The notes under the pieces were generated by a model. The model did no database searches. It saw only the letters and a list, made by a program, of their open reading frames with translations, and was not told the origin of the DNA. This document shows positions 3,332 to 37,003 of a stretch of 64,000 bases of DNA, piece after piece. A program made the position numbers and the translations under genes. Within the stretch, counting starts at the first letter, position 1; every line of letters begins with the position of its first letter. The stretch comes from Aquamicrobium lusatiense (GTDB lineage Bacteria; Pseudomonadota; Alphaproteobacteria; Rhizobiales; Rhizobiaceae): the NCBI RefSeq assembly GCF_014201615.1, contig NZ_JACHEU010000001.1:1631631-1695630 (forward strand), given 5' to 3'.

Positions 3332-4624
3332 CTACACGGCCAGCCGATGCGGCACCGACGCGGACGATGGAAGCGCGCTGGCGATTGATTCATACGACGT
3401 CAGCGAACCGACCGGGCCGACAGCTGCCAGCGTCGGCCGGGTGGAGAACAGACGCCCCGACAGATCGGTCAGCCGCCCCACGGTGAGAGCTGAAAGGCGC
3501 TCCATCAGTTCCTCCTTGGGGATCGGCCGGCCGAACAGAAGCAGTTGCCGGGCGATCTGCGATGCGCGGCTGGAAGGGCTTTCCGCCGACATGATCAGCC
3601 CCGCGCGGTATTGCGCGCGTGCCCGGTCCAGCTCTTCCTGGAGAATGCGGTCGCCGGCTTTCTGAAGCTCGGTGGCGATCACCGGAACGAGCTCGGACAG
3701 ATTGTTCTGGCCTGTGGCGGCATGGATGCCGAAAATGCCGGTGTCGGAAAAGCCCCAGTGGAAAGCATAGACCGAATAGCACAGGCCACGCTTCTCGCGC
3801 ACTTCCTGAAACAGGCGCGAAGACATGCCGCCGCCGAGGATCATGGAAAGAACCTGCGAGGCGTAGAAATCGCGCACATGATAGGCGCGGCCCTCGAAGC
3901 CGAGGATCACCTGCGCGTCCATCAGGTCGCGGTCTTCGCGGAAATCGCCTCCGACATATTGCGCATATTGCGAAACCGCGCCCTGCGCATGCGGGCGGAA
4001 ACCACCGAGCCGCTTTTCGACCTCGCGCACGAACTCGTCATGCTTCACATCGCCGGCGGCGACGACGACCATGCGGTCGGCGCCATATTCGCGCTGCATG
4101 AAGCGGTGGAGTTGCGCAGAGCTGAAGGACAGGACCGTTTCCGGCGTGCCGAGAATGGAGCGGCCAAGCGTCTGGTGGCGGAATGCTGTCTCGGTGAAAT
4201 GATCGAAGACGACATCGTCGGGCGTGTCGTGGGCGGCGCCGATTTCCTGCAGGATGACGTTCTGTTCGCGCTCCAGCTCTTCGGGATCGAAGGTGGAATT
4301 CTGGAGAATGTCAGCCAGAAGATCGACCGCCAGCGGAACGTCGTCGGACAGGACGCGGGCGTAGAAGGAGGTGGTCTCGACGCTGGTGGCGGCATTGATC
4401 TCGCCGCCCACATTCTCGATCTCGGAGGCAATCTCGAACGCCGAACGCCTGGCTGTACCCTTGAACGCCATGTGCTCCAGCAGGTGAGCCATGCCGTGCT
4501 CATCGTCACGTTCGTTGCGGGCTCCGGACTTTACCCAGACCCCCAGAGCAACGGATTCCATGCTTGGAAGGGTTTCGGTGGCGACTGTCAGGCCGTTCGA
4601 CAGACGGCTTACCTCAACACCCAT
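3332..4624 (-). CDS. M16 family zinc peptidase (mitochondrial processing peptidase-like)
   Basis: A 430-residue M16B peptidase. The inverted zinc motif HLLEH is at residues 47-51, and the downstream ELEREQNVILQEI helix supplies the third ligand region. A C-terminal inactive half contains the usual GGGMSSRLFQEVREKRGL signature, which binds the substrate end. I chose the ATG at 4624 (MGVEVSRLSNGL), preceded by GGGAGTGAG; a longer frame starting at 4744 would overlap thrC and has no family-like sequence. Bacterial members degrade peptides or process proteins, and are related to the mitochondrial processing peptidase subunit. It is 14 nt downstream of thrC, the conserved neighbour in alphaproteobacteria, so the two are likely one operon. 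Confidence 0.93.
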   Translation of the reverse strand: MGVEVSRLSNGLTVATETLPSMESVALGVWVKSGARNERDDEHGMAHLLEHMAFKGTARRSAFEIASEIENVGGEINAATSVETTSFYARVLSDDVPLAVDLLADILQNSTFDPEELEREQNVILQEIGAAHDTPDDVVFDHFTETAFRHQTLGRSILGTPETVLSFSSAQLHRFMQREYGADRMVVVAAGDVKHDEFVREVEKRLGGFRPHAQGAVSQYAQYVGGDFREDRDLMDAQVILGFEGRAYHVRDFYASQVLSMILGGGMSSRLFQEVREKRGLCYSVYAFHWGFSDTGIFGIHAATGQNNLSELVPVIATELQKAGDRILQEELDRARAQYRAGLIMSAESPSSRASQIARQLLLFGRPIPKEELMERLSALTVGRLTDLSGRLFSTRPTLAAVGPVGSLTSYESIASALPSSASVPHRLAV

Positions 4625-4638
4625 GTAGATCTCACTCC

Positions 4639-6036
4639 CTACTGACGTGCCCGCGTATGGCGGGAAATATGATCTTCCAACATTTTTTTGTCCGATGGAA
4701 GCACTGTATAGTTTTCCTTTGCGTCCATCAGGTGGGAAAGCCATGCGGGCAGCGCAGGGGATATGCCGCAGGCATCCTCGACGGCAGCCGGGAACTTGGC
4801 CGGATGAGCCGTGCCTAGGATGACGTTGGGGGCGGACGACCGGGGTTGGCCGGCAGAAACATGAACGGCCGTCGCCGTGTGCGGGTCCAGCAGATAGCCG
4901 CTGTTTTCAAGGGTCGAGCGGATGGTTTCGGCCGTGTTCTTCATCGTTGCCCGGCCAGCGCCGAAGCCGCCACGGATCGTTTCGATCTCCTGCTTTTCGA
5001 TGGTGAAGGCGCCGGATTGCCTGAGCCCGTTCATGTAGCGCCGCACCGTTTCCGCGTTGCGGTCCGAGGCTTCGAACAACAGGCGCTCGAAGTTCGACGA
5101 GATCTGGATGTCCATGGAAGGCGAGGTCGTGGCGACCACGCCCTGCATCCGGTATTCGCCGGTTTCCAGTGTGCGGGCCAGAATGTCGTTGTCATTGGTG
5201 GCGATGGTGAGCATTTCCACCGGCAGGCCCATGCGCTTTGCGGCATAGCCGGCGAAGATGTCGCCGAAATTGCCGGTCGGCACGGTAAAGGAAACAGTGC
5301 GGTCCGGTGCGCCGAGCGAAACAGCCGAGGTGAAGTAGTAGACGATCTGGGCCATGATGCGCGCCCAGTTGATGGAGTTCACGCCCGACAGCGCCACGCG
5401 GTCGCGGAAGGCGTGATCGTTGAACAACTCCTTCACCAGCCCCTGACAGTCGTCGAAATTCCCCTCGATGGCGAGCGCATGGACATTGTCCGCAGTCGAG
5501 GTCGTCATCTGGCGCTGCTGCACCGGCGAGACCTTGCCATTGGGGAAGAGAATGAAAATATCGGTGCGGCTGCGCCCGGCGAAGGCCTCGATCGCGGCGC
5601 CGCCGGTGTCGCCGGAGGTGGCGCCCACGATGGTGGCGCGCTGGTCGCGCTCGGTCAGCACATGGTCCATCAGCCGGGCCAGCAGTTGCATGGCCACATC
5701 CTTGAAGGCCAGCGTGGGACCGTGGAAAAGCTCCAGCACGAAGCTGTTGGGGCCGAGCTGCACAAGCGGGCACACTGCCTCATGGCGGAATGTGGCGTAG
5801 GCCTCGTTGATCAGCCTTTCCAGCACCGGGGTTGCGATCTCACCGCCCACGAAAGGCGTCAGCACACGCAGCGCGATCTGCTGGTAGGAAAGACCACGCA
5901 TGGCGCGGATGTCTGCGGCGGAAAATTGCGGCCACTCCTGCGGAAGATAAAGGCCGCCGTCGCGCGCCAGCCCTGCAAGGACGGCATCCGAGAAACCGAG
6001 ACGAGGTGCTTCACCACGGGTGCTGATGTAGTTCAT
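4639..6036 (-). CDS. thrC: Threonine synthase
   Basis: A 465-residue PLP enzyme that converts O-phospho-L-homoserine to threonine and phosphate, the last step of threonine synthesis. It has the N-terminal MNYISTRGEAPRLGFSDAVL region typical of the long thrC class, the PLP lysine in HGPTLAFKDVAMQ, the phosphate-binding VGATSGDTGGAAIEA loop, and the later FTVPTGNFGDIFAGY segment. Length and motifs match the proteobacterial enzyme fully. It heads a leftward series with the M16 peptidase 14 nt downstream. It is divergent from the lipoprotein gene at 6143, so the 106-bp gap should hold promoters for both. No leader peptide or riboswitch was seen. Confidence 0.97.
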   Translation of the reverse strand: MNYISTRGEAPRLGFSDAVLAGLARDGGLYLPQEWPQFSAADIRAMRGLSYQQIALRVLTPFVGGEIATPVLERLINEAYATFRHEAVCPLVQLGPNSFVLELFHGPTLAFKDVAMQLLARLMDHVLTERDQRATIVGATSGDTGGAAIEAFAGRSRTDIFILFPNGKVSPVQQRQMTTSTADNVHALAIEGNFDDCQGLVKELFNDHAFRDRVALSGVNSINWARIMAQIVYYFTSAVSLGAPDRTVSFTVPTGNFGDIFAGYAAKRMGLPVEMLTIATNDNDILARTLETGEYRMQGVVATTSPSMDIQISSNFERLLFEASDRNAETVRRYMNGLRQSGAFTIEKQEIETIRGGFGAGRATMKNTAETIRSTLENSGYLLDPHTATAVHVSAGQPRSSAPNVILGTAHPAKFPAAVEDACGISPALPAWLSHLMDAKENYTVLPSDKKMLEDHISRHTRARQ

Positions 6037-19913: not shown

Positions 19914-21278
19914 TTGCTTCTCGAAAAGATTGCATCAAAAAAATCGGTTATCGGCATACTCGGTCTCGGTTATGTTGGCATCCCGCTTGCGTTGCGCTTC
20001 AGCGAGGCTGGCTTCAGGGTTCTTGGCTTCGATATCGATGGAGACAGGGTTTCTAATCTCAATTCCGGTCGAAGCCCGATAAAGCATATTCCCGGTGCCG
20101 AGATCGCCTCGATGGTGGCGGGGGATTCTCCGCTCCGGTCGAAGCCCGATAAAGCATATTCCCGGTGCCGAGATCGCCTCGATGGTGGCGGGGGATTCTC
20201 CGCGACCGCTGATTTCGCGCGCATTCCGGAAGTCGACGCCATCATTATCTGCGTTCCCACACCGCTCAGCCGCCATCGTGAACCGGATTTGTCCTTCATC
20301 ACCAGCACAATGGAGACGATTGCGCCGTATCTGCGTTCCGGCCAGATACTGTCGCTGGAAAGCACGACGTGGCCGGGGACGACCGAGGAGGTGTTGCGCC
20401 CCTTCGTCGATAAGCGGGGCCTGACGATTGGCGAGGACTTCTTTCTCGTCTATTCGCCCGAGCGCGAGGACCCCGGCAACCCGAACTTCACCACCCGCAC
20501 TATTCCCAAGGTGGTGGGTGGGGCGACGCCTGCCTGCCGCTCCGCCGGTGAGGCGCTCTACGGAGTTGTCATCGATCGCGTGGTGCCGGTTTCTTCAACG
20601 CAGGCAGCCGAACTGACCAAGCTCCTGGAAAACATCCACCGCTCGGTGAATATCGGTCTGGTAAACGAGATGAAGATCATCGCTGATCGCATGGGCATCG
20701 ACATCTACGAGGTGATCGATGCGGCCGCCACCAAGCCATTTGGGTTCACGCCCTATTATCCGGGCCCGGGCCTGGGCGGCCACTGCATCCCGATTGATCC
20801 GTTCTATCTGACATGGAAAGCACGCGAATACGGGCTCTCCACCCATTTTATTGAGCTGGCAGGCGAAATTAACCGTGATATGCCGGAATGGGTGGTGACC
20901 AAGATAACTGATGCGTTGAACGAGCGGCAGAAATCGCTCAAGGGCAGCCGTGTTCTTGCTCTCGGAATTGCGTACAAGCGCGACGTGGACGACATGCGCG
21001 AGTCGCCTTCGGTTCTGGTTATGGAGATCCTGCGTGATCGCGGTGCACTGGTCGACTATTCCGATCCGAACGTGCCAGTCTTTCCGAAGATGCGCGAGCA
21101 CAAATTCGATCTGAAGTCGGTGGATCTCACACCGGAGTCGGTGGAAGCATATGATTGCGTAGTCCTGCTGACGGATCATTCGGATTTCGACTATGGGATG
21201 ATCGCCCAGCATGCGAAGTTGATGGTCGATACGAGAGGCAAGTATCGCGAGGCGAAAGAAAACGTGGTGAAGGCGTAG
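19914..21278 (+). CDS. UDP-HexNAc 6-dehydrogenase, WbpA-like, with internal 70-bp duplication
   Basis: A 454-residue nucleotide-sugar dehydrogenase that would oxidise UDP-GlcNAc (or UDP-ManNAc) to the uronic acid with NAD. It starts at a TTG preceded by AGGAGA. The Rossmann motif GLGYVG is at residues 17-22; [14 protein letters not shown], FSLVYSPERxDPGN-like and [12 protein letters not shown] (catalytic Cys near 290) are intact. Residues 51-97 are abnormal: a 70-bp unit occurs twice, read in two different frames, adding 23 residues (including [14 protein letters not shown]) that homologues should lack. Removing one copy leaves the downstream part out of frame, so the copy in front appears to carry a compensated frameshift. 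The insert falls in a loop after the first Rossmann strands; activity is uncertain. Confidence 0.88.
20064..20203 (+). repeat. Perfect 70-bp tandem duplication inside the WbpA-like gene
   Basis: The unit at 20064-20133 (beginning TCCGGTCGAAGCC and ending GATTCTCCGC) is repeated without a mismatch at 20134-20203. Seventy is not a multiple of three, so the two copies are translated in different frames. The identity suggests a recent event. Confidence 0.98.
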
Positions 21279-21280
21279 AT

Positions 21281-22141
21281 ATGATTGCAGACTCTCCTGC
21301 GCGGGGTCTTGCTCTTCTGTATATTTCGGCGATTATATTTGGGTTGACGTATCTTACCGTGACTGGTGACAATACGTTGCTTCGGCCAGCCCATATAGCG
21401 TTCGCTCTGTGCATCGTGCTTCTCACGAGAGCCCATGGTTTTGTGCCGCGGGCTCTTATGCCGATAGCTTTCTCATGGAAGGGGACGGCAGTTGCATTTT
21501 TCTTGATATATGCTCTCGTGATGGCTCTAATTCACTGGGACCGTGAAATTTCAGCATCCTTTGTCCGAAATTTCTTTGACCGTCTTTTGCCCGGAATTTT
21601 GCTCGGTTACGTTGCCTTCGGGCGCTACGGTCTCGAATCCGGGTGGCTGTATAGGAGGAGGAAGTTTATTGATTTTACTGGTTTGATGTCTTTTTCTGCA
21701 GTATTATATTATGCAGTATATAATATATATCCTTTGATGCGAACTGATGTTTTCTTGATTAATGTTTCTGAGGATGAGGTTTCTTATCAGCTATATGGGG
21801 TGTATCTCGTTATTGGGGTAATAGTTTTTTTGAGAATTTTAGAGTTTTACTGGTCTAAATCGATTATCAAGACGTTTTTTTTAACGATGGTGGCATGCTT
21901 TGCTTCTATTGTTGGATTTTTGTTGGCGCAAGCGCTGGGCTCAAATTCGGCGGCCGTTCTGATACTTCTGATCAATACGACCGCCCTTGGCTACCAGAGT
22001 TGGTATTCTCTTCGGACTTGGGATGCAGAAGGTTTGCTTCGGTTTGCCATTATAGTCGCTGCGACGGCAGGCTCATATTTCTGGATGATTAATCTGATTT
22101 CTGGTATGCCTCCTATTCGATTGTTTGGATTTGCGACCTGA
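21281..22141 (+). CDS. Wzy-like polysaccharide polymerase, N-terminal part (split gene)
   Basis: A 286-residue hydrophobic protein with about eight membrane helices, starting 2 nt after the WbpA-like gene. It stops at TGA 22139-22141, where the next frame begins (TGATG). Alone it is too short for an O-antigen polymerase (normally 400 or more residues) and lacks the conserved C-terminal loop, which is present in the next frame. The simplest reading is one gene split by loss of one base near 22136; two coupled genes are the alternative. Bases 21650-21900 are strikingly AT-rich compared with the neighbours, typical of wzy genes acquired by transfer. The original would link repeat units at the periplasmic face. 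Confidence 0.7.
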   Translation: MIADSPARGLALLYISAIIFGLTYLTVTGDNTLLRPAHIAFALCIVLLTRAHGFVPRALMPIAFSWKGTAVAFFLIYALVMALIHWDREISASFVRNFFDRLLPGILLGYVAFGRYGLESGWLYRRRKFIDFTGLMSFSAVLYYAVYNIYPLMRTDVFLINVSEDEVSYQLYGVYLVIGVIVFLRILEFYWSKSIIKTFFLTMVACFASIVGFLLAQALGSNSAAVLILLINTTALGYQSWYSLRTWDAEGLLRFAIIVAATAGSYFWMINLISGMPPIRLFGFAT

Positions 22142-22545
22142 TGGACGCTGTAAATTCCATCGGCGGTAGCAGCATTCAGTCTCGCGTTGAGATTTGGCTG
22201 GATAGAGGCCTTGAGCAGCTTTCGGTAAACCCTGTTTTTGGCGATCTGGCTGCCGATGTCGTAACCGGATCACCCGGTTACTATCTGCACTCGGTTTTTT
22301 CAGTGCAAACACATCTCGGAATCATTGGAAGCTTGTTGTTCTTTCCAGCTTTTGCGGGACTTGTATGGTCCGTTTACTCGCTGGGAGTCAGTCGAACTCT
22401 TAAATCAATCACTTTACCGTTGTTGATTGTCGCCGTGCTGGCATCATTTTGGACATGGATGCCGCTGTGGTTTTTGATTGGAGCTATGTGGGGTCAGGTA
22501 TTTAATTTCCAAAATACCATAAAAGATAATGTTCATATGAAATAA
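22141..22545 (+). pseudogene. Wzy-like polymerase, C-terminal part in shifted frame
   Basis: These 134 residues carry the segment expected at the C-terminal periplasmic loop of a Wzy or O-antigen ligase: SSIQSRVEIWLDRG, then VNPVFGDLAAD, then HSVFSVQTHLGIIG and two or three membrane helices. It starts with an ATG overlapping the stop of the preceding frame. Adding one base near the junction would give a continuous protein of about 420 residues. There is no independent ribosome site beyond possible coupling through TGATG. I therefore treat it as the detached C-terminus of the polymerase, with translational coupling as an alternative. Confidence 0.6.
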
Positions 22546-22622
22546 TTACTGCTCCGATATTATCCATAGGGGTCTGTATGATTGTTATATTTTTGAAAGG
22601 CGGCGGATTTGGATTGTCTTAG

Positions 22623-23960
22623 ATGATATTCTCTTTTCGACATATGGGCATAGGAGGAAATTTTTCCCCGTTCTTACGCAATATTGCGAAGCTTGTTGGC
22701 GGTACTGTCGTGGGGCAGTTGGTCACACTGGCGGCGTTGCCGGTTTTGACCCGCATCTACTCCCCGGCGGAGTACGGATTTGCCGGTCTTTTCGCCGCTG
22801 TGGTTGTGTGTATTACCGCCGTATCGACATTGCGCTATGATTTTGCAATTCCCATTCCTTCGCGGGAGCGTGTCGCCCGGCAAATTACCGCTGTGGCGTT
22901 GATCTCCGCATTAGCGGTAATAGTGGTAGTCGGGGCAGGGGCGCTGGCCCTATCTTTCAGGTTCAGCTTGCCTGCTGGTCTGTATGCTTGGCAGTTTATC
23001 GGGCTTCTGCTTCTGGCTGTGGCCACCATCAGCTTCTTCAACATTGGGCGGGGCTGGGCTACGCGAAAAAAGGAGTTCGGCCAACTCGCGTTGACGCGGG
23101 TACAGCAAGGGGTGGCTGGAACAAGTGTTCAGATTGTGTTGGGAATGGTTGGCTTTGGTTCGGCAGGGCTGATAATCGGCCAGATCGTTGGACAGTCTGC
23201 TGGTGCAATGCGGCTTTGGCGTCTCGTGCCGAGGCCGCTTTCGGAAGGGGCGATTTGGGCGGCGCGCCGTTTTCGGAATTTTCCAATTTACGATAGTTGG
23301 TCAGGATTGCTTAATGTTGCCGGTACGCAGGCTCCGGTCATGCTTTTTGCCGCTTTCTTTTCTCCCATGCTGGTCGGATATTATGCCTTCGCTACGCGTC
23401 TTGTGGCCGCTCCTATATCGTTGATCGGTCAAGCGGCCGCGAGAGTATTTCTGCCGCATATTATAGAAGCAAATCGCTCCGGTTCCGGTGCCGCCGCCGT
23501 GCTGAAATTGACCTCAGCGCTGGCCTATATTGGCTTTCCTGCCTTCACTCTTCTTGCTGCGCTTTCGTCTCCTCTGGTTCGAATATTATTCGGGGAGGCG
23601 TGGGTTCCGGCGAGTATGATCATATCATGGACCGCTTTGTGGGCCGGCTGGCAACTGGTCGCCTCGCCTCTGTCGGTTACGCTGATCGGTTTAGAGGCGC
23701 AGAAAACGAACACCTTGCTTCAGGCAACTCTTTTCACCTTGCGATGCCTTGCAATTCTCGTTGGGTATTGGCAAGGGTCTGAAAAAATGGCGATAGTGCT
23801 GTTTTCATTTGCCAGCATTCTTGTTTATTTTGCTTTCATTCTCGCTGTGGGCAGGCTTGTGGGGATCGGAACCTTTCGTATGATCCGGCCTCTCTTTGTC
23901 CCTCTGTTTCTCTCAGCAGTTCTCTACGGAAGTCTGCAAGTCTTATGGCCGTATCCATGA
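22623..23960 (+). CDS. Wzx-type oligosaccharide flippase (MATE/PST superfamily)
   Basis: A 445-residue protein with about 12 membrane helices. The N-terminal region NIAKLVGGTVVGQLVTLAAL followed by PVLTRIYSPAEYGFAGLF is diagnostic for the PST/Wzx flippases that move undecaprenyl-PP-linked repeat units across the inner membrane. The start may be 22623 or the ATG at 22644; neither has a strong ribosome site. It overlaps the following glycosyltransferase by a few bases, so these genes are one transcript. A 77-bp AT-rich gap separates it from the broken polymerase gene. Confidence 0.9.
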   Translation: MIFSFRHMGIGGNFSPFLRNIAKLVGGTVVGQLVTLAALPVLTRIYSPAEYGFAGLFAAVVVCITAVSTLRYDFAIPIPSRERVARQITAVALISALAVIVVVGAGALALSFRFSLPAGLYAWQFIGLLLLAVATISFFNIGRGWATRKKEFGQLALTRVQQGVAGTSVQIVLGMVGFGSAGLIIGQIVGQSAGAMRLWRLVPRPLSEGAIWAARRFRNFPIYDSWSGLLNVAGTQAPVMLFAAFFSPMLVGYYAFATRLVAAPISLIGQAAARVFLPHIIEANRSGSGAAAVLKLTSALAYIGFPAFTLLAALSSPLVRILFGEAWVPASMIISWTALWAGWQLVASPLSVTLIGLEAQKTNTLLQATLFTLRCLAILVGYWQGSEKMAIVLFSFASILVYFAFILAVGRLVGIGTFRMIRPLFVPLFLSAVLYGSLQVLWPYP

Positions 23961-26232: not shown

Positions 26233-27327
26233 ATGAAGACCATTGCCACGATCGTCGGCGCCAGGCCGCAATTCATCAAGGTCGCACCGGTGAGCAAGGC
26301 TCTGGCCGCTACCGGTTTGGTCAGGGAAGTGCTCATCCACACCGGCCAGCATCACGATGCGGATATGTCGGATATCTTCTTCGAAGAACTCGGCATCGCC
26401 GCGCCCGACCATCACCTCGACGTGCATGGCGGTGGGCATGGCGCCATGACCGGGGCGATGATGCAGAAGCTGGAGCCGGTGCTGCAGGAATTGCGGCCTG
26501 ACCGGGTTCTGGTCTACGGCGACACCAACTCGACGCTGGCGGGGGCTCTTGTTGCGGCCAAGCTGCATATTCCGGTTGCTCATGTCGAGGCCGGCTTGCG
26601 CTCCTTCAACCGTGCTATGCCGGAGGAAATCAACCGTATCGTCGCAGATCAGCTGTCCGACATCCTGTTTGCCTCGACACGGGCGGCGGTTGAAAACCTG
26701 CGGGGCGAGGGGGTTGCCGCCGAACGTGTTTTCCCGGTCGGAGACGTCATGTACGACGCGGCGATGCAGTTCGCGGCCATCGCCGCACAGCGTGGAGAAC
26801 TCCTCTCCCGGCTGGGGGTAGAACCGAACCGCTATGTGCTGGCCACGATTCATCGCGCGGAGAACACCGACGATCCGGCCAGGCTGGCCAATATCGTTTC
26901 CGCGCTCGAAACGGTTGCGGCAACGCTGCCGGTCGTGCTGCCGCTGCACCCACGCACGCAGACACGGATGAAAGCTGCCGGTCTTGCCTTCGAAAAAGTT
27001 CAGACCGTGCCGCCTGTCGGTTATCTCGACATGGTTGCGCTTGAATCGCAGGCTGCGCTGATCGCTACCGATTCCGGCGGCGTCCAGAAGGAGGCATTCT
27101 TCTACCATGTGCCTTGCGTGACCCTGCGCGATGAGACCGAATGGGTGGAATTGATCGAGCTTGGCTGGAACAGGCTGGTATCGCCCGCCAGAGGCGATGT
27201 TGCGCAGATCATCAGGGCGGCTTTGGGTACGCGCGGTGTCGATGCGCAACCCTATGGGAATGGCAAGGCAGCCGAGACAATCGCTGAGATACTGACGCGC
27301 AGCACCGCGCGCGCGGAGCCGGCGTGA
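26233..27327 (+). CDS. wecB: Non-hydrolysing UDP-GlcNAc 2-epimerase family (WecB/WbpI)
   Basis: A 364-residue epimerase with MKTIATIVGARPQFIKVAPV at the N-terminus, the HTGQHHDADMSDIFF active-site segment, VYGDTNSTLAGALVAAKLHI, HVEAGLRSFNRAMPEEINR and the C-terminal TDSGGVQKEAFF. The family interconverts UDP-GlcNAc and UDP-ManNAc (WecB) or the diacetamido-uronic forms (WbpI). Because the WbpA, WbpB, WbpE and WbpD families are also present, the WbpI role (C-2 epimerisation of UDP-GlcNAc3NAcA to UDP-ManNAc3NAcA) is a good possibility, but the sequence does not separate the two. It sits directly before the WbpB and WbpD homologues. Confidence 0.92.
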   Translation: MKTIATIVGARPQFIKVAPVSKALAATGLVREVLIHTGQHHDADMSDIFFEELGIAAPDHHLDVHGGGHGAMTGAMMQKLEPVLQELRPDRVLVYGDTNSTLAGALVAAKLHIPVAHVEAGLRSFNRAMPEEINRIVADQLSDILFASTRAAVENLRGEGVAAERVFPVGDVMYDAAMQFAAIAAQRGELLSRLGVEPNRYVLATIHRAENTDDPARLANIVSALETVAATLPVVLPLHPRTQTRMKAAGLAFEKVQTVPPVGYLDMVALESQAALIATDSGGVQKEAFFYHVPCVTLRDETEWVELIELGWNRLVSPARGDVAQIIRAALGTRGVDAQPYGNGKAAETIAEILTRSTARAEPA

Positions 27328-27373: not shown

Positions 27374-28369
27374 ATGACGTCGATCGCACATGTCGGGCAC
27401 GGCTACTGGGGCCGCAACCTTGCGCGCAATTTCCACGAACTTGGCCATCTCGCGGTTGTCGTGGACCCGGATCCGAAGGCAGCTGAAGCGGCGGCAGCGA
27501 GCTACGGGGTTCGTGCCGCCACTTTTGAGGAGGTCCTGTCGGACGCCGGTGTAGACGGTGTCTCCATCGCCTCCCCGGCGGGGTTGCACTACCGGCAGGC
27601 GAAGGCCGCGCTTGAAGCAGGCAAGCATGTCTATGTGGAAAAGCCGCTGGCGCTCGATGTCGCTGAGGCGGCGGAGCTTTGCGCGCTGGCGGAGGCGCGA
27701 GGGCTGACGCTGATGGTAGGTCATCTGCTGCAATACCATCCGGTCTATCTGAAGTTGCGTGCGATGGTGGAGGCCGGTGAACTGGGGCGTCTGCTCCATG
27801 TCTATTCCAACCGCCTGTCGCTCGGAAAATTCCGGACCGAGGAAAATGTGCTGTGGTCGTTCGCTCCCCACGACATTTCGATGATTCTCGGGCTCGTCGG
27901 TGAAGAGCCGGTCACGGTTTCGGCGCAGGGCAATGTCGCCTTCACGCCGGGGGTCGCCGATCTGGTGTCGGTGCAGATGCGCTTTCCCGGTGGCGCGGCG
28001 GCGCACGTCCTTGCCTCGTGGATGCATCCGTTCAAGGAGCAGCGTCTGGTCGTGATCGGCGACAAGGGGATGGCGGTTTTCGAAGACAGCCAGCCCGACT
28101 GGGATGACAAGCTCATCATTTATCGTCACATCGTCGATGTGGCGGGACCTGTTCCCGCTCCCGCCAAGGCAGACGGGGAGCGCGTCGCGGTTGAGAAGCA
28201 AGAGCCCCTTAAGCAGGAGTGCAGGCATTTCATCCAGTCCATAAAGGCCGGCACGGCTCCACGGACTGACGGGCGCGAGGGGCTTGCCGTGCTTCGTGTG
28301 CTTGACCGGGCGGAGAAATCTCTGGCCACTAATCTGATTGAATCTGCCCCGTTGGGAGAAAATGCATGA
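27374..28369 (+). CDS. Gfo/Idh/MocA oxidoreductase, WbpB/WlbA-like
   Basis: A 331-residue NAD-dependent sugar dehydrogenase. The N-terminal Rossmann motif is [13 protein letters not shown], followed by [20 protein letters not shown] and the family signature VEKPLALD. The catalytic region around [13 protein letters not shown] and [10 protein letters not shown] is intact. WbpB/WlbA oxidises C-3 of UDP-GlcNAcA to the 3-keto form, with the aminotransferase WbpE acting next; the neighbouring WbpD-like acetyltransferase gene overlaps by 4 nt (ATGA), which strongly supports this role. A GAAGG ribosome site precedes the ATG. Length is normal. Confidence 0.88.
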
Positions 28370-30561: not shown

Positions 30562-31926
30562 TCATTTGATGGGCAGGTCTGCCGGCGCCGATGAGGTCAG
30601 CCCATTGCGACCGATGGCGAAGTAGTCGAGTCCATGACGCTTGAGTTGATGCGGATCGTAGAGATTACGACCGTCGAAGATTACAGGCGATTTCAGTTTC
30701 GCTGCGATCTCGTCGAAATCGGGTGCGGAGAAGGACTTCCATTCAGTCGCTACAATCAAGGCATCAGCGTTGTCGAGAGCGTCCTCCTGCTGTTCGACAA
30801 GTATCAGATCTTCCCTGTCGCCATAGATGCGCCTGCATTCGTCCATTGCCTTGGGGTCATAGGCCCGGATGCGGGCTCCCTTTTCCCAGAGAGACTCCAT
30901 AATTGCGCGGGAGGGCGCCTCGCGCATGTCGTCTGTGTTCGGCTTGAATGACAGACCCCACAAGGCAAAGGTGCGACCTTCAACATTACCGTCGAAATAC
31001 CGAAGGATCTTGTCGAGAAGCACCCTTTTTTGAGTCGCGTTTCGGGCCTCGACGGCCTTCAGCAGGTGCATGTCATATTTCTGCTGATCGCCGGTACGGA
31101 TGAGGGCCTGCACATCTTTTGGGAAACAGGAACCGCCGTATCCTATACCTGCATAAATAAAATGGTAGCCGATACGGGGATCACTGCCGATCCCTTTGCG
31201 GACCATCTCAATGTCGGCGCCGAGAATATCGGCAAGGTTTGCGATTTCGTTGATAAAGGAGATCTTGGTCGCCAGCAGCGTATTGGCGGCATATTTTGTC
31301 ATTTCCGCAGAACGGACGTCCATCACGATCATCTTCTCGTGATTGCGATTTTGCGGCATGTACAATTCCCGCATGATTGCCTCGGTCTCGCTGCTCGCGG
31401 TCCCCAGGATAATCCGATCGGGCTTGAGACAGTCTGAAACGGCAGAACCTTCTTTGAGGAACTCGGGATTTGATGCGACATCGAACGGGATATGCGAGCG
31501 TTCCCGTTTTGAAAGCCTCGCTTCAATGGTTCTTTTGACCTGGTCGCAGGTACCTACCGGTACGGTGGATTTGACGACGACAATTCGTTTTTCCGACATC
31601 AGCGAACCGATGGTGTCGGCGACAGCGAGCACATACTTCAAATCTGCGGCGCCGTCCTCATCGGGCGGCGTGCCTACAGCGATGAACTGAACAAGGCCGT
31701 GGCTCACGCCGACTTCCGGATCCGTCGTGAAGCGAAGTCGTCCATTCTTGCGATTGGTGAGAACGATCTCCTCAAGGCCCGGCTCAAAGATGGGAATTAT
31801 GCCTTGCTCAAGTTTGGCGATCTTCTCTGCGTCCTTGTCGACACATACCACTTCATGCCCGCTTGCCGCCATCACGGCAGCCTGAACCAGACCGACGTAT
31901 CCCGTCCCGAACACAGTTGCTTTCAA
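30562..31926 (-). CDS. ugd: UDP-glucose 6-dehydrogenase
   Basis: A 454-residue dehydrogenase that makes UDP-glucuronic acid from UDP-glucose with two NAD. It shows [20 protein letters not shown] at the start, [32 protein letters not shown], the catalytic cysteine in [12 protein letters not shown] and [16 protein letters not shown]. Motifs separate it clearly from the WbpA-like gene at 19914 (GGHCIPID). It is transcribed leftward and is divergent from the glycosyltransferase at 32150, so it forms its own unit. UDP-GlcA could feed this polymer, a capsule or other exopolysaccharides. Confidence 0.95.
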
Positions 31927-34657: not shown

Positions 34658-35866
34658 TTGCTCAACACACCTTTCTCCCCATGGCCCTCCTTCACTGACG
34701 AAGAGGTCGAGGCGGTTTCGCGGGTCATGCGTTCAAACCGGGTCAATTACTGGACGGGTGATGAGTGCCGGATGTTCGAGCGCGAGTTCGCCGCGTGGGT
34801 CGGTACGGATCATGCGGTCGCGCTCGGCAACGGTACGCTGGCGCTCGATGTGGCGCTCCATGGTCTTGGCATCGGACCGGGCGACGAGGTGGTGGTCACG
34901 CCGCGCACCTTCCTTGCCTCGGTGTCCTCCGTGGTCAATGCGGGAGCTACGCCCGTCTTTGCTGATGTCGACCGCGACAGCGGCAACATCACAGCTGAAA
35001 CGATCGCGGCCGTTCTGACAGAGCGGACAATGGCCGTCATCCCCGTGCATCTCGCCGGGTGGCCGTGCGACATGGATCCGATCATGGAGCTCGCCGGGCG
35101 CCATGGCTTCAAGGTGATCGAAGATTGCGCGCAGGCTCATGGCGCGCGCTACAAGGGCCGTTCGGTCGGCGCGATCGGCCATGTCGGCGCGTGGTCGTTC
35201 TGTCAGGACAAGATCATCACCACGGGCGGCGAGGGCGGCATGGTGACGACAAACGATCGCGAGCTCTGGTCACGCATGTGGTCGTTCAAGGATCACGGCA
35301 AGAGCTGGGAGGCGGTTTACGAGCGCGAGCACCCGGCGGGCTTCCGATGGCTGCACGAGAGCTTCGGCACAAACTGGCGCATGCTGGAGATGCAGGCCGC
35401 AGTCGGTCGCATACAACTGGCGCGCATGGCTGACTGGACGGCCGCGCGTACGGCCAACGCGGAAAAGATTCTTGAGGCACTGGCGCCTTTCGCGGGCGAG
35501 GGCTGCCCGGTGCGCGCACCTGTGCCCGGCAAGGATGCTAACAACCACAACAATGAGACACGCCACGCATTCTACAAGCTTTACGCTTATGTCAGGCCGG
35601 AGAATCTGTCGGCGGAATGGAGCCGTGACCGCATCATTGGCGAGATCGTCGCGCGGGGCGTGCCCTGCTATCAGGGCTCCTGTTCCGAGGTCTATCTTGA
35701 GAAGGCTTTCGACGGCACCGGATGGCGACCGGCCGATCGCCTGCCAGTGGCGCGCGAACTGGGAGAGACCAGCCTGATGTTTCTGGTCCATCCAACCCTG
35801 ACCGGGGAAGAGATATCCAGAACGGCCACGGTCGTGGGCGAGGTCCTGAACCTCGCCACACTCTAG
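34658..35866 (+). CDS. DegT/DnrJ/EryC1 sugar aminotransferase, PglE-like role
   Basis: A 402-residue PLP aminotransferase starting at a TTG preceded by AGGAG. The cofactor region is SFCQDKIITTGGEGG with the Schiff-base lysine near residue 186; VIEDCAQAHGARYKG carries the PLP-binding Asp. It differs from the WbpE-like pair (35870 and 49179) in having the longer C-terminus and the SFCQDK rather than SFYPAKPLG-type motif. Given the dehydratase, PglD and PglC homologues, it probably transaminates the UDP-4-keto sugar at C-4. The substrate is inferred only from context. Confidence 0.87.
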   Translation: MLNTPFSPWPSFTDEEVEAVSRVMRSNRVNYWTGDECRMFEREFAAWVGTDHAVALGNGTLALDVALHGLGIGPGDEVVVTPRTFLASVSSVVNAGATPVFADVDRDSGNITAETIAAVLTERTMAVIPVHLAGWPCDMDPIMELAGRHGFKVIEDCAQAHGARYKGRSVGAIGHVGAWSFCQDKIITTGGEGGMVTTNDRELWSRMWSFKDHGKSWEAVYEREHPAGFRWLHESFGTNWRMLEMQAAVGRIQLARMADWTAARTANAEKILEALAPFAGEGCPVRAPVPGKDANNHNNETRHAFYKLYAYVRPENLSAEWSRDRIIGEIVARGVPCYQGSCSEVYLEKAFDGTGWRPADRLPVARELGETSLMFLVHPTLTGEEISRTATVVGEVLNLATL

Positions 35867-35869
35867 ATA

Positions 35870-37003
35870 TCAGCCGATCACCGCTGAGATTATGCCGTCC
35901 TGCACCTGCGATGCGAGGTAGGGATGCATCGGCAGGCTGATAACCCGGCCTGCCAGATCGTCGCTGACGGACAGGCCCGCAGGATCGGCGGGAAAATCCT
36001 TGTAGGCGTTCTGACGGTGCAGCGGAACCGGATAGTAGACGACGGTGGGAACGCCCGCTGCACTTGCGCGCTTCTGGAACGCCTCGCGCTCCTCACCTGA
36101 AGCGAGCTTGAGCGTGTACTGCGCCCAGATGCTTTTCAGCCCTTCCGGAATGAAAGGTGTCTCGTAGTGGCCGGAGAGGCCTTTGCTGTAGCGTTGGGCA
36201 ACCTCCTGCCGGGCCTCGACCTCGTCGGCGTAGATCGCCAGCTTTTCGAGGAGGATCGCGGCCTGAAGCGTGTCGAGCCGGCTGTTGAGACCAATGCGCT
36301 CATTGTAATATTTGTGCGAGCCCTTGCCGTGCACCCGGTAGGAGTCGATCAGCTTTGCAAGTTCGTCATCGTTGGTGAACAGCGCGCCACCATCGCCGTA
36401 GCAGCCGAGCGGCTTGGCGGGAAAGAATGACGTGGTTGTGATGTCGCACAGCGAGCCTGTGATGCGCTCCTTGTAGACGCCGCCCCAGCCCTGCGCGCTG
36501 TCACCGATCACCTTCATGCCGTTTTCGCGGGCGATGGGGATGAGGACGTCGTAGTCGGCGGGAAGGCCGAACAGGTCGACCGGGATGACGCAGGCCGGAT
36601 TGAGGCCGAGCGTACGGGCATGGGCGATGGCGCGCTTCAGGCTCTCCGGATCCATGTTGAAGGTGTCGGGCAGGACATCCACGAAAACAGGGGTCGCCCC
36701 GACCAGAGGGACGACTTCCGCCGTCGCTGCGAAAGTGAAGCTCGGCACGAACACCGCGTCGCCGGCCTTCACGCCCAGCGCCATGAGCGCGAGCTGGAGC
36801 GCGTCGGTGCCGTTGGCGCAGGAAAGGCAGTGTTTGGCACCGCAAAAATCGGCCAGCTGCTTTTCCAGCTGTGCGACCTGAGGCCCCATGATGTACTTGC
36901 CATCGTCGAGAACGTTGAGGATGGATTTTTCGAGGGCCGCGCGAATGCGGGTCTGCTGGGCGGCCAGATCGATAAAGGGAAGCTGCATTTCAAGAGCTTT
37001 CAT
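35870..37003 (-). CDS. DegT sugar aminotransferase, WbpE-like (copy 1)
   Basis: A 377-residue PLP aminotransferase. It has PFIDLAAQQTRIRAALEKSI, GKYIMGPQVAQLEKQLADF, VFVPSFTFAATAEVVPLVGA, the Asp of VIGDSAQGWGGVYK and the Schiff-base Lys in SFFPAKPLGCYGDGGA, which together match WbpE/WlbC. WbpE transaminates C-3 of UDP-3-keto-GlcNAcA, between WbpB and WbpD. The gene converges on the PglE-like gene with a 3-bp gap. The start could be 37003 or the ATG at 36988; neither has a clear ribosome site. A close homologue lies at 49179. Confidence 0.9.
   Translation of the reverse strand: MKALEMQLPFIDLAAQQTRIRAALEKSILNVLDDGKYIMGPQVAQLEKQLADFCGAKHCLSCANGTDALQLALMALGVKAGDAVFVPSFTFAATAEVVPLVGATPVFVDVLPDTFNMDPESLKRAIAHARTLGLNPACVIPVDLFGLPADYDVLIPIARENGMKVIGDSAQGWGGVYKERITGSLCDITTTSFFPAKPLGCYGDGGALFTNDDELAKLIDSYRVHGKGSHKYYNERIGLNSRLDTLQAAILLEKLAIYADEVEARQEVAQRYSKGLSGHYETPFIPEGLKSIWAQYTLKLASGEEREAFQKRASAAGVPTVVYYPVPLHRQNAYKDFPADPAGLSVSDDLAGRVISLPMHPYLASQVQDGIISAVIG

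Follow-up and report, generated by a model that had tools for sequence, protein, structure and literature searches.

We propose that the gene for a WbpA-like UDP-sugar 6-dehydrogenase in Aquamicrobium lusatiense carries a -1 frameshift that is compensated by a recent tandem duplication of 70 bp, a reading to which we give a probability of roughly three in four. The gene lies in the window, by which we mean the whole stretch of 64,000 nucleotides analyzed here. According to this proposal the gene would first have lost one nucleotide, the exact base being a matter of deduction, and a 70-bp segment containing the lesion would then have duplicated in tandem, so that -1 + 70 gives +69. The ribosome would take copy 1 in the native frame and copy 2 in the shifted frame and leave copy 2 in the native frame again, producing a protein of 454 residues in which, as the structure model has it, the 23 extra residues form a loop where a helix of the NAD domain leads into a strand. 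As the repeat is perfect and its copies adjacent, slippage to one or three copies is expected, and this would lead to frames that are both dead by computation.

Tandem duplications that repair a gene are familiar as suppressors from laboratory work; in the present case lesion and repair seem to occur together in a wild genome. If the enzyme works, the locus illustrates how a single event can bring a dead polysaccharide gene back into use, with an unstable repeat as the price, and how contingency loci based on duplication might originate. Precedents exist for each half of the proposal, namely the duplication suppressors of fliE and the switching of pneumococcal capsule genes by duplication, the latter with opposite polarity. 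Among the matches listed, drawn mostly from outside the subscription journals and without the Waite papers, there was no report of a natural gene with a frameshift compensated by tandem duplication, and PMC13410964, PMC12231264, PMC3485313 and PMC12074656 offered nothing decisive on the question.

The 70-bp repeat and the reading frame

The features of the gene are as follows.

19914..21278, plus strand: UDP-sugar (WbpA-like) 6-dehydrogenase gene, 454 codons, TTG start
20064..20133, plus strand: copy 1 of the tandem duplication, native frame read up to the deficit
20134..20203, plus strand: copy 2 of the tandem duplication, entered in the shifted frame; the gene exits copy 2 in the native frame
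20120..20124, plus strand: G5 run of copy 1, inside the interval that is 1 nt short relative to homologues; presumed site of the lost base
20190..20194, plus strand: G5 run of copy 2, same as the run of copy 1
20121..20189, plus strand: 23-residue insert, codons 70-92, as placed by alignment, the exact boundary being arbitrary within one or two residues

The initial annotation of this DNA described an exact 70-bp repeat inside a WbpA-like gene, and the identity of the copies was borne out by Tandem Repeats Finder (100% match between 20064-20133 and 20134-20203, 2.0 copies) as well as by an exact string test, which gave zero differences. A perfect tandem repeat of this length cannot be a chance match. 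The repeat region has one matching place in its own genome (13 contigs totaling 4.39 Mb, with a completeness rating of 100%). Scanning 1.144 Mb of that genome for duplications with units of 10-699 bp (55 stretches including the window, ~26% of the genome) revealed no second 70-bp duplication, and the other perfect N-free tandem duplications in the sample have units of 10-14 bp, with the exception of a hexamer array in L211. Similarly, in the 138 loci around homologues in other genomes (784 kb, some places counted twice; units of at least 12 bp) we found four perfect N-free tandem duplications, with units of 12-15 bp. Consisting of two copies of 70 bp, the dehydrogenase repeat differs from a simple-sequence repeat, which is made of many short units. 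Two other repeats were noted: the hexamer array at L211:7534-7732, where a 97-base run of N precedes ~100 bp of perfect hexamers, and, at L163:12799-15497, closely packed degenerate tandem repeats (periods of 27, 54, 81 and 108 bp), which are reminiscent of RTX-type nonapeptide repeats.

With two copies the reading frame is open for 454 codons, 362 of them following the insert without a stop, so that the duplication does restore the frame; copies 1 and 2 are read in different frames, and the end of copy 2 aligns with homologues. A single copy is out of frame, contraction to it leading to a stop after 146 codons, and three copies lead to a stop after 102 codons, as there is a stop codon in the unit's third frame. 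Comparison with 15 near homologues at the codon level shows a deficit of one nucleotide in the single copy, within a short interval that includes the G run; none of the 15 has a G run longer than four in that interval. The earlier claim that a G was lost thus stands as far as the one-nucleotide deficit is concerned, whereas the G5 run at 20120-20124 is a plausible site for the lost nucleotide, no close sister allele having been found.

Since both copies carry the same one-nucleotide deficit, the loss preceded the duplication in the shortest history, and it is by parsimony that the order of events is most simply loss, then duplication. The arithmetic also allows a frame-breaking duplication to have come first, with nucleotide losses in both copies later. 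However, the copies are identical, and this order requires two identical losses or gene conversion as compared to two events in total for the favored one, which makes it hardly credible. The breakpoints themselves show neither micro-homology nor inverted repeats above chance when compared to 20000 random site pairs, among which an inverted repeat of at least 6 bp occurred in 1416 and a direct repeat of at least 4 bp in 14061. We therefore rejected a fold-back or micro-homology origin, and the lack of significant homology at the breakpoints counts against our reading.

The second copy could conceivably have been created by the assembly or the sequencing, either through an untrimmed contig overlap (70 equals k-1 for k = 71) or through a gap-filling error. 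The junction is indeed blunt, and the bases beside the repeat match neither unit end, as an untrimmed overlap would leave them. The contig termini, however, speak for another k, as the shared, unmasked ends form nine pairs, each in agreement over exactly 95 bp (this accounts for 18 of the 20 unmasked ends; the other two share nothing, and contigs 11-13 are masked), pointing to a short-read graph with k = 95. At this k a two-copy repeat of 70 bp has no repeated k-mer, so that reads across the junction should be needed and all 95-mers over it would be expected in the reads; moreover, an overlap join should leave 95 bp rather than 70. On account of the 95-bp ends we rejected an untrimmed overlap of k = 71. 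The absence of another 70-bp duplication from the 1.144 Mb and the lack of N in the window likewise argue against an artefact, and so does a codon-model scan of 464 kb, in which 5 of 124 same-strand frame changes were flagged, leaving frequent indel errors in the assembly unsupported. We conclude that the repeat is probably not an assembly artefact, an explanation that we consider improbable. Two of the flagged same-strand frame changes are at 3390 and 4708, the latter at a place where the ORFs 3332-4744 and 4639-6036 overlap by ~100 nt.

The insert in the dehydrogenase

The window protein belongs to the nucleotide-sugar dehydrogenases, with PF03721, PF00984 and PF03720 all above their gathering scores and TIGR03026 at 407.5 bits versus a cut-off of 189.8; the equivalog models listed for it all score under their cut-offs. 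Its own genome holds no close second copy, the next best protein being 26% identical. A second UDP-sugar dehydrogenase is encoded in the window on the minus strand (30562-31926); it too has 454 codons, contains all three Pfam domains and is 26% identical to the first.

For comparison we kept 92 homologues, after dropping 9 of 101 aligned frames with identity of 50% or less or with incomplete cover. The columns of residues 70-92 are occupied in none of the 92, and the alignment picks up immediately after residue 92. In the homologues a helix ending in ...I..M is followed by a short turn and then by ...GF.AT.DF, and the insert stands between these two parts. In most of the nearest homologues the 23 residues are the only gaps relative to the window protein, and over the same span the length is 430 residues in 62 of 93 rows, the window protein being counted among the 93. 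The prediction of a 454-residue protein that would be about 431 residues long without the insert agrees well with the 454 codons here and the 430 residues of most homologues. An insert of 23 residues after about residue 73 had likewise been claimed; it is indeed 23 residues long and private, though the alignment positions it at 70-92 with an exact edge that is arbitrary. We also looked for the same insert fixed in relatives and found it in no homologue examined, including all 20 aligned frames of the same genus (29 loci, 9 of which gave no aligned frame; these genomes partly overlap the set of 92 homologues). From the identity of the copies and the absence of the insert in homologues, the duplication looks recent and private to the lineage.

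At none of the 104 invariant columns and at none of the 39 columns conserved in at least 95% of sequences does the window protein deviate from the 92 homologues. That every strongly conserved position is kept argues that the gene was not dead for long. C291, K236, N240 and D295 occupy invariant columns in an alignment of 36 sequences, and we take them, C291 being the cysteine of the GGHC motif, to be conserved catalytic positions of the UDP-glucose/GDP-mannose dehydrogenase family.

In the AlphaFold2 model the insert is flanked by a helix and a strand and takes the form of a loop of low confidence, with pLDDT below 50 at residues 75-92. The order of helices and strands is the same as in the insert-free control, the Hyphomicrobium homologue L032, except for a short helix at 73-76 within the insert. 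The joining turn at the insert site comprises 3 residues in the control. The mean pLDDT is 81.9 for the window protein compared to 85.8 for the control, a difference that we counted against our reading. We also considered that the insert might harm the active-site loop, which is modeled with low confidence in the window protein (277-279, 283-291); we rejected this, as the confidence is low in the control as well (260-274). Judging from the intact conserved positions and the modeled fold, the 454-residue enzyme is probably still functional.

The polysaccharide cluster and the possibility of neutral decay

The dehydrogenase is surrounded by a polysaccharide cluster that includes a Polysacc_synt_2 dehydratase, a Polysacc_synt_3 flippase-like protein, glycosyltransferases and genes resembling wbpI, wbpB and wbpD, the last three at the following positions.

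26233..27327, plus strand: WbpI-like UDP-GlcNAc 2-epimerase, TIGR00236 at 320.9 bits against a cut-off of 210.15
27374..28369, plus strand: WbpB-like Gfo/Idh/MocA sugar dehydrogenase, PF01408
28366..28935, plus strand: WbpD-like hexapeptide acetyltransferase, PF00132

Two DegT aminotransferases (34658-35866 and 35870-37003) are candidates for WbpE. Among 80 related genome_contigs loci, flanks of up to 3 kb around the dehydrogenase contain a WbpB homologue at 42 and a WbpD homologue at 56. In Pseudomonas aeruginosa, WbpA, WbpB, WbpD, WbpE and WbpI make UDP-ManNAc3NAcA (PMC10622841). The window enzyme is a candidate for the WbpA of such a pathway, with the same dehydrogenase family and WbpB-, WbpD- and WbpI-like cluster neighbors, and differs from that WbpA in the 23-residue insert of its NAD domain.

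The next gene downstream, at 21281-22545, is a probable O-antigen polymerase (Wzy), and it is split at 22141 into frames of 286 and 134 aa, whose stop and start codons overlap in the sequence TGATG (22139-22143). A distant Brevundimonas relative (locus L034) contains a single frame of 429 residues that spans both parts; to this protein the C-terminal part is 34% identical (E 3.5e-9, or 8.7e-15 in a small search), which is fair evidence, and the N-terminal part 22% identical (E 7e-4), which is weak. Of 297 genomes of the order, two gave matches to the polymerase, namely the genome under study and G236. We set the G236 match aside, as it is weak and lies in an open frame of 407 codons, and the long frames of its locus (L168) did not resemble a polymerase. 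The split may reflect a one-nucleotide frame change left uncompensated, or else a gene divided into two translationally coupled parts; the codon-model scan scored the region 21274-22662 as non-coding, so that it escapes that scan. The apparent split of the polymerase would weaken the case for selection on the function of the cluster, and if the polymerase is dead, the gain from restoring the dehydrogenase is less clear.

This bears on whether the gene or the whole cluster is dispensable, such that a nucleotide was lost by neutral decay and the frame was restored by a chance duplication. In favor of this, besides the split look of the adjoining polymerase gene, is a count of the placements in the one-copy gene at which a tandem duplication would reopen the frame to the native stop: 12267 of 226717 (5.4%) over all lengths of 10-200 bp, and 227 of 1222 (18.6%) with the length fixed at 70 bp. 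At the latter rate chance restoration is not rare, which counts against our reading of a compensated frameshift. Nevertheless, none of the 143 strongly conserved columns deviates, the 362 codons after the insert have remained free of stops, and the sole perfect N-free tandem duplication in the 1.144 Mb whose unit exceeds 14 bp, the hexamer array excepted, hits the site of the frameshift. We therefore regard neutral decay as unlikely.

Copy number and possible switching

The compensated frameshift that we favor is compatible with a dedicated phase-variation switch, in which the repeat is maintained so that the population alternates between surface polysaccharide on and off. Such a switch would agree with the finding that the frame is full with two copies but not with one or three, and duplications within capsule genes do switch the pneumococcal capsule (PMC2995930, PMC4243769 and PMC4022640). 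On the other hand, all 92 homologues and all 20 same-genus frames (from 29 loci; the two sets partly overlap) lack the insert, no mixed allele was seen, and the one-copy state would need a fresh duplication to return; a maintained switch is thus very improbable. Of the phase variation suggested in the initial annotation, what holds is the instability, which follows from the sequence, while an evolved switch finds no support, the insert occurring in 0 of 92 homologues and three copies being as dead as one. Phase variation would accordingly be a potential of the unstable repeat, neither observed nor a conserved feature. Longer repeats revert more often. Our more tentative suggestion, with the odds clearly against it, is that copy number acts as a gate, two copies giving a working enzyme and one or three giving none, so that a suppressor would have created a switchable locus whose polarity is opposite to the pneumococcal one.

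The pneumococcal gene cap3A encodes a UDP-glucose dehydrogenase, of the same superfamily as the window enzyme. PMC4022640, PMC2995930 and PMC4243769, which refer to Waite et al. 2001 and 2003, attribute capsule phase variation to tandem duplications that arise spontaneously within cap3A, cap8E and tts, and the duplication goes with reversible loss of the capsule (PMC4243769; for cap3A, PMC2995930). For a 9-bp insertion in pneumococcal capsule genes, reversion is expected at or below ~10^-5, as PMC4022640 states, citing Waite et al. The dehydrogenase repeat is like the cap3A type in being a perfect tandem duplication, of a length that is not a multiple of three, in a polysaccharide gene. It is unlike that type in its polarity, as the duplicated cap3A is dead, whereas here two copies give 454 open codons and one copy stops after 146.

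Intragenic tandem duplications also act as suppressors of Salmonella fliE deletions (PMC8546590), where, as here, a damaged gene is mended and the length of the protein altered. The fliE deletions are in-frame and the 30-bp duplications restore spacing, whereas in the dehydrogenase a frame error of 1 nt is compensated and 23 residues are added. As in homopolymer and short-repeat contingency loci (for instance PMC1891110 and PMC3441752), repeat length sets the frame, though those loci consist of runs of short units and the present one of a single 70-bp unit in two copies. Finally, the repeat resembles the frameshifted tandem repeats in proteins of PMC12871928 in that a repeat read in a shifted frame yields new protein sequence; that work is a survey of computed frameshifts, whereas the dehydrogenase is a single gene with a fixed change of frame that makes up for a lesion.
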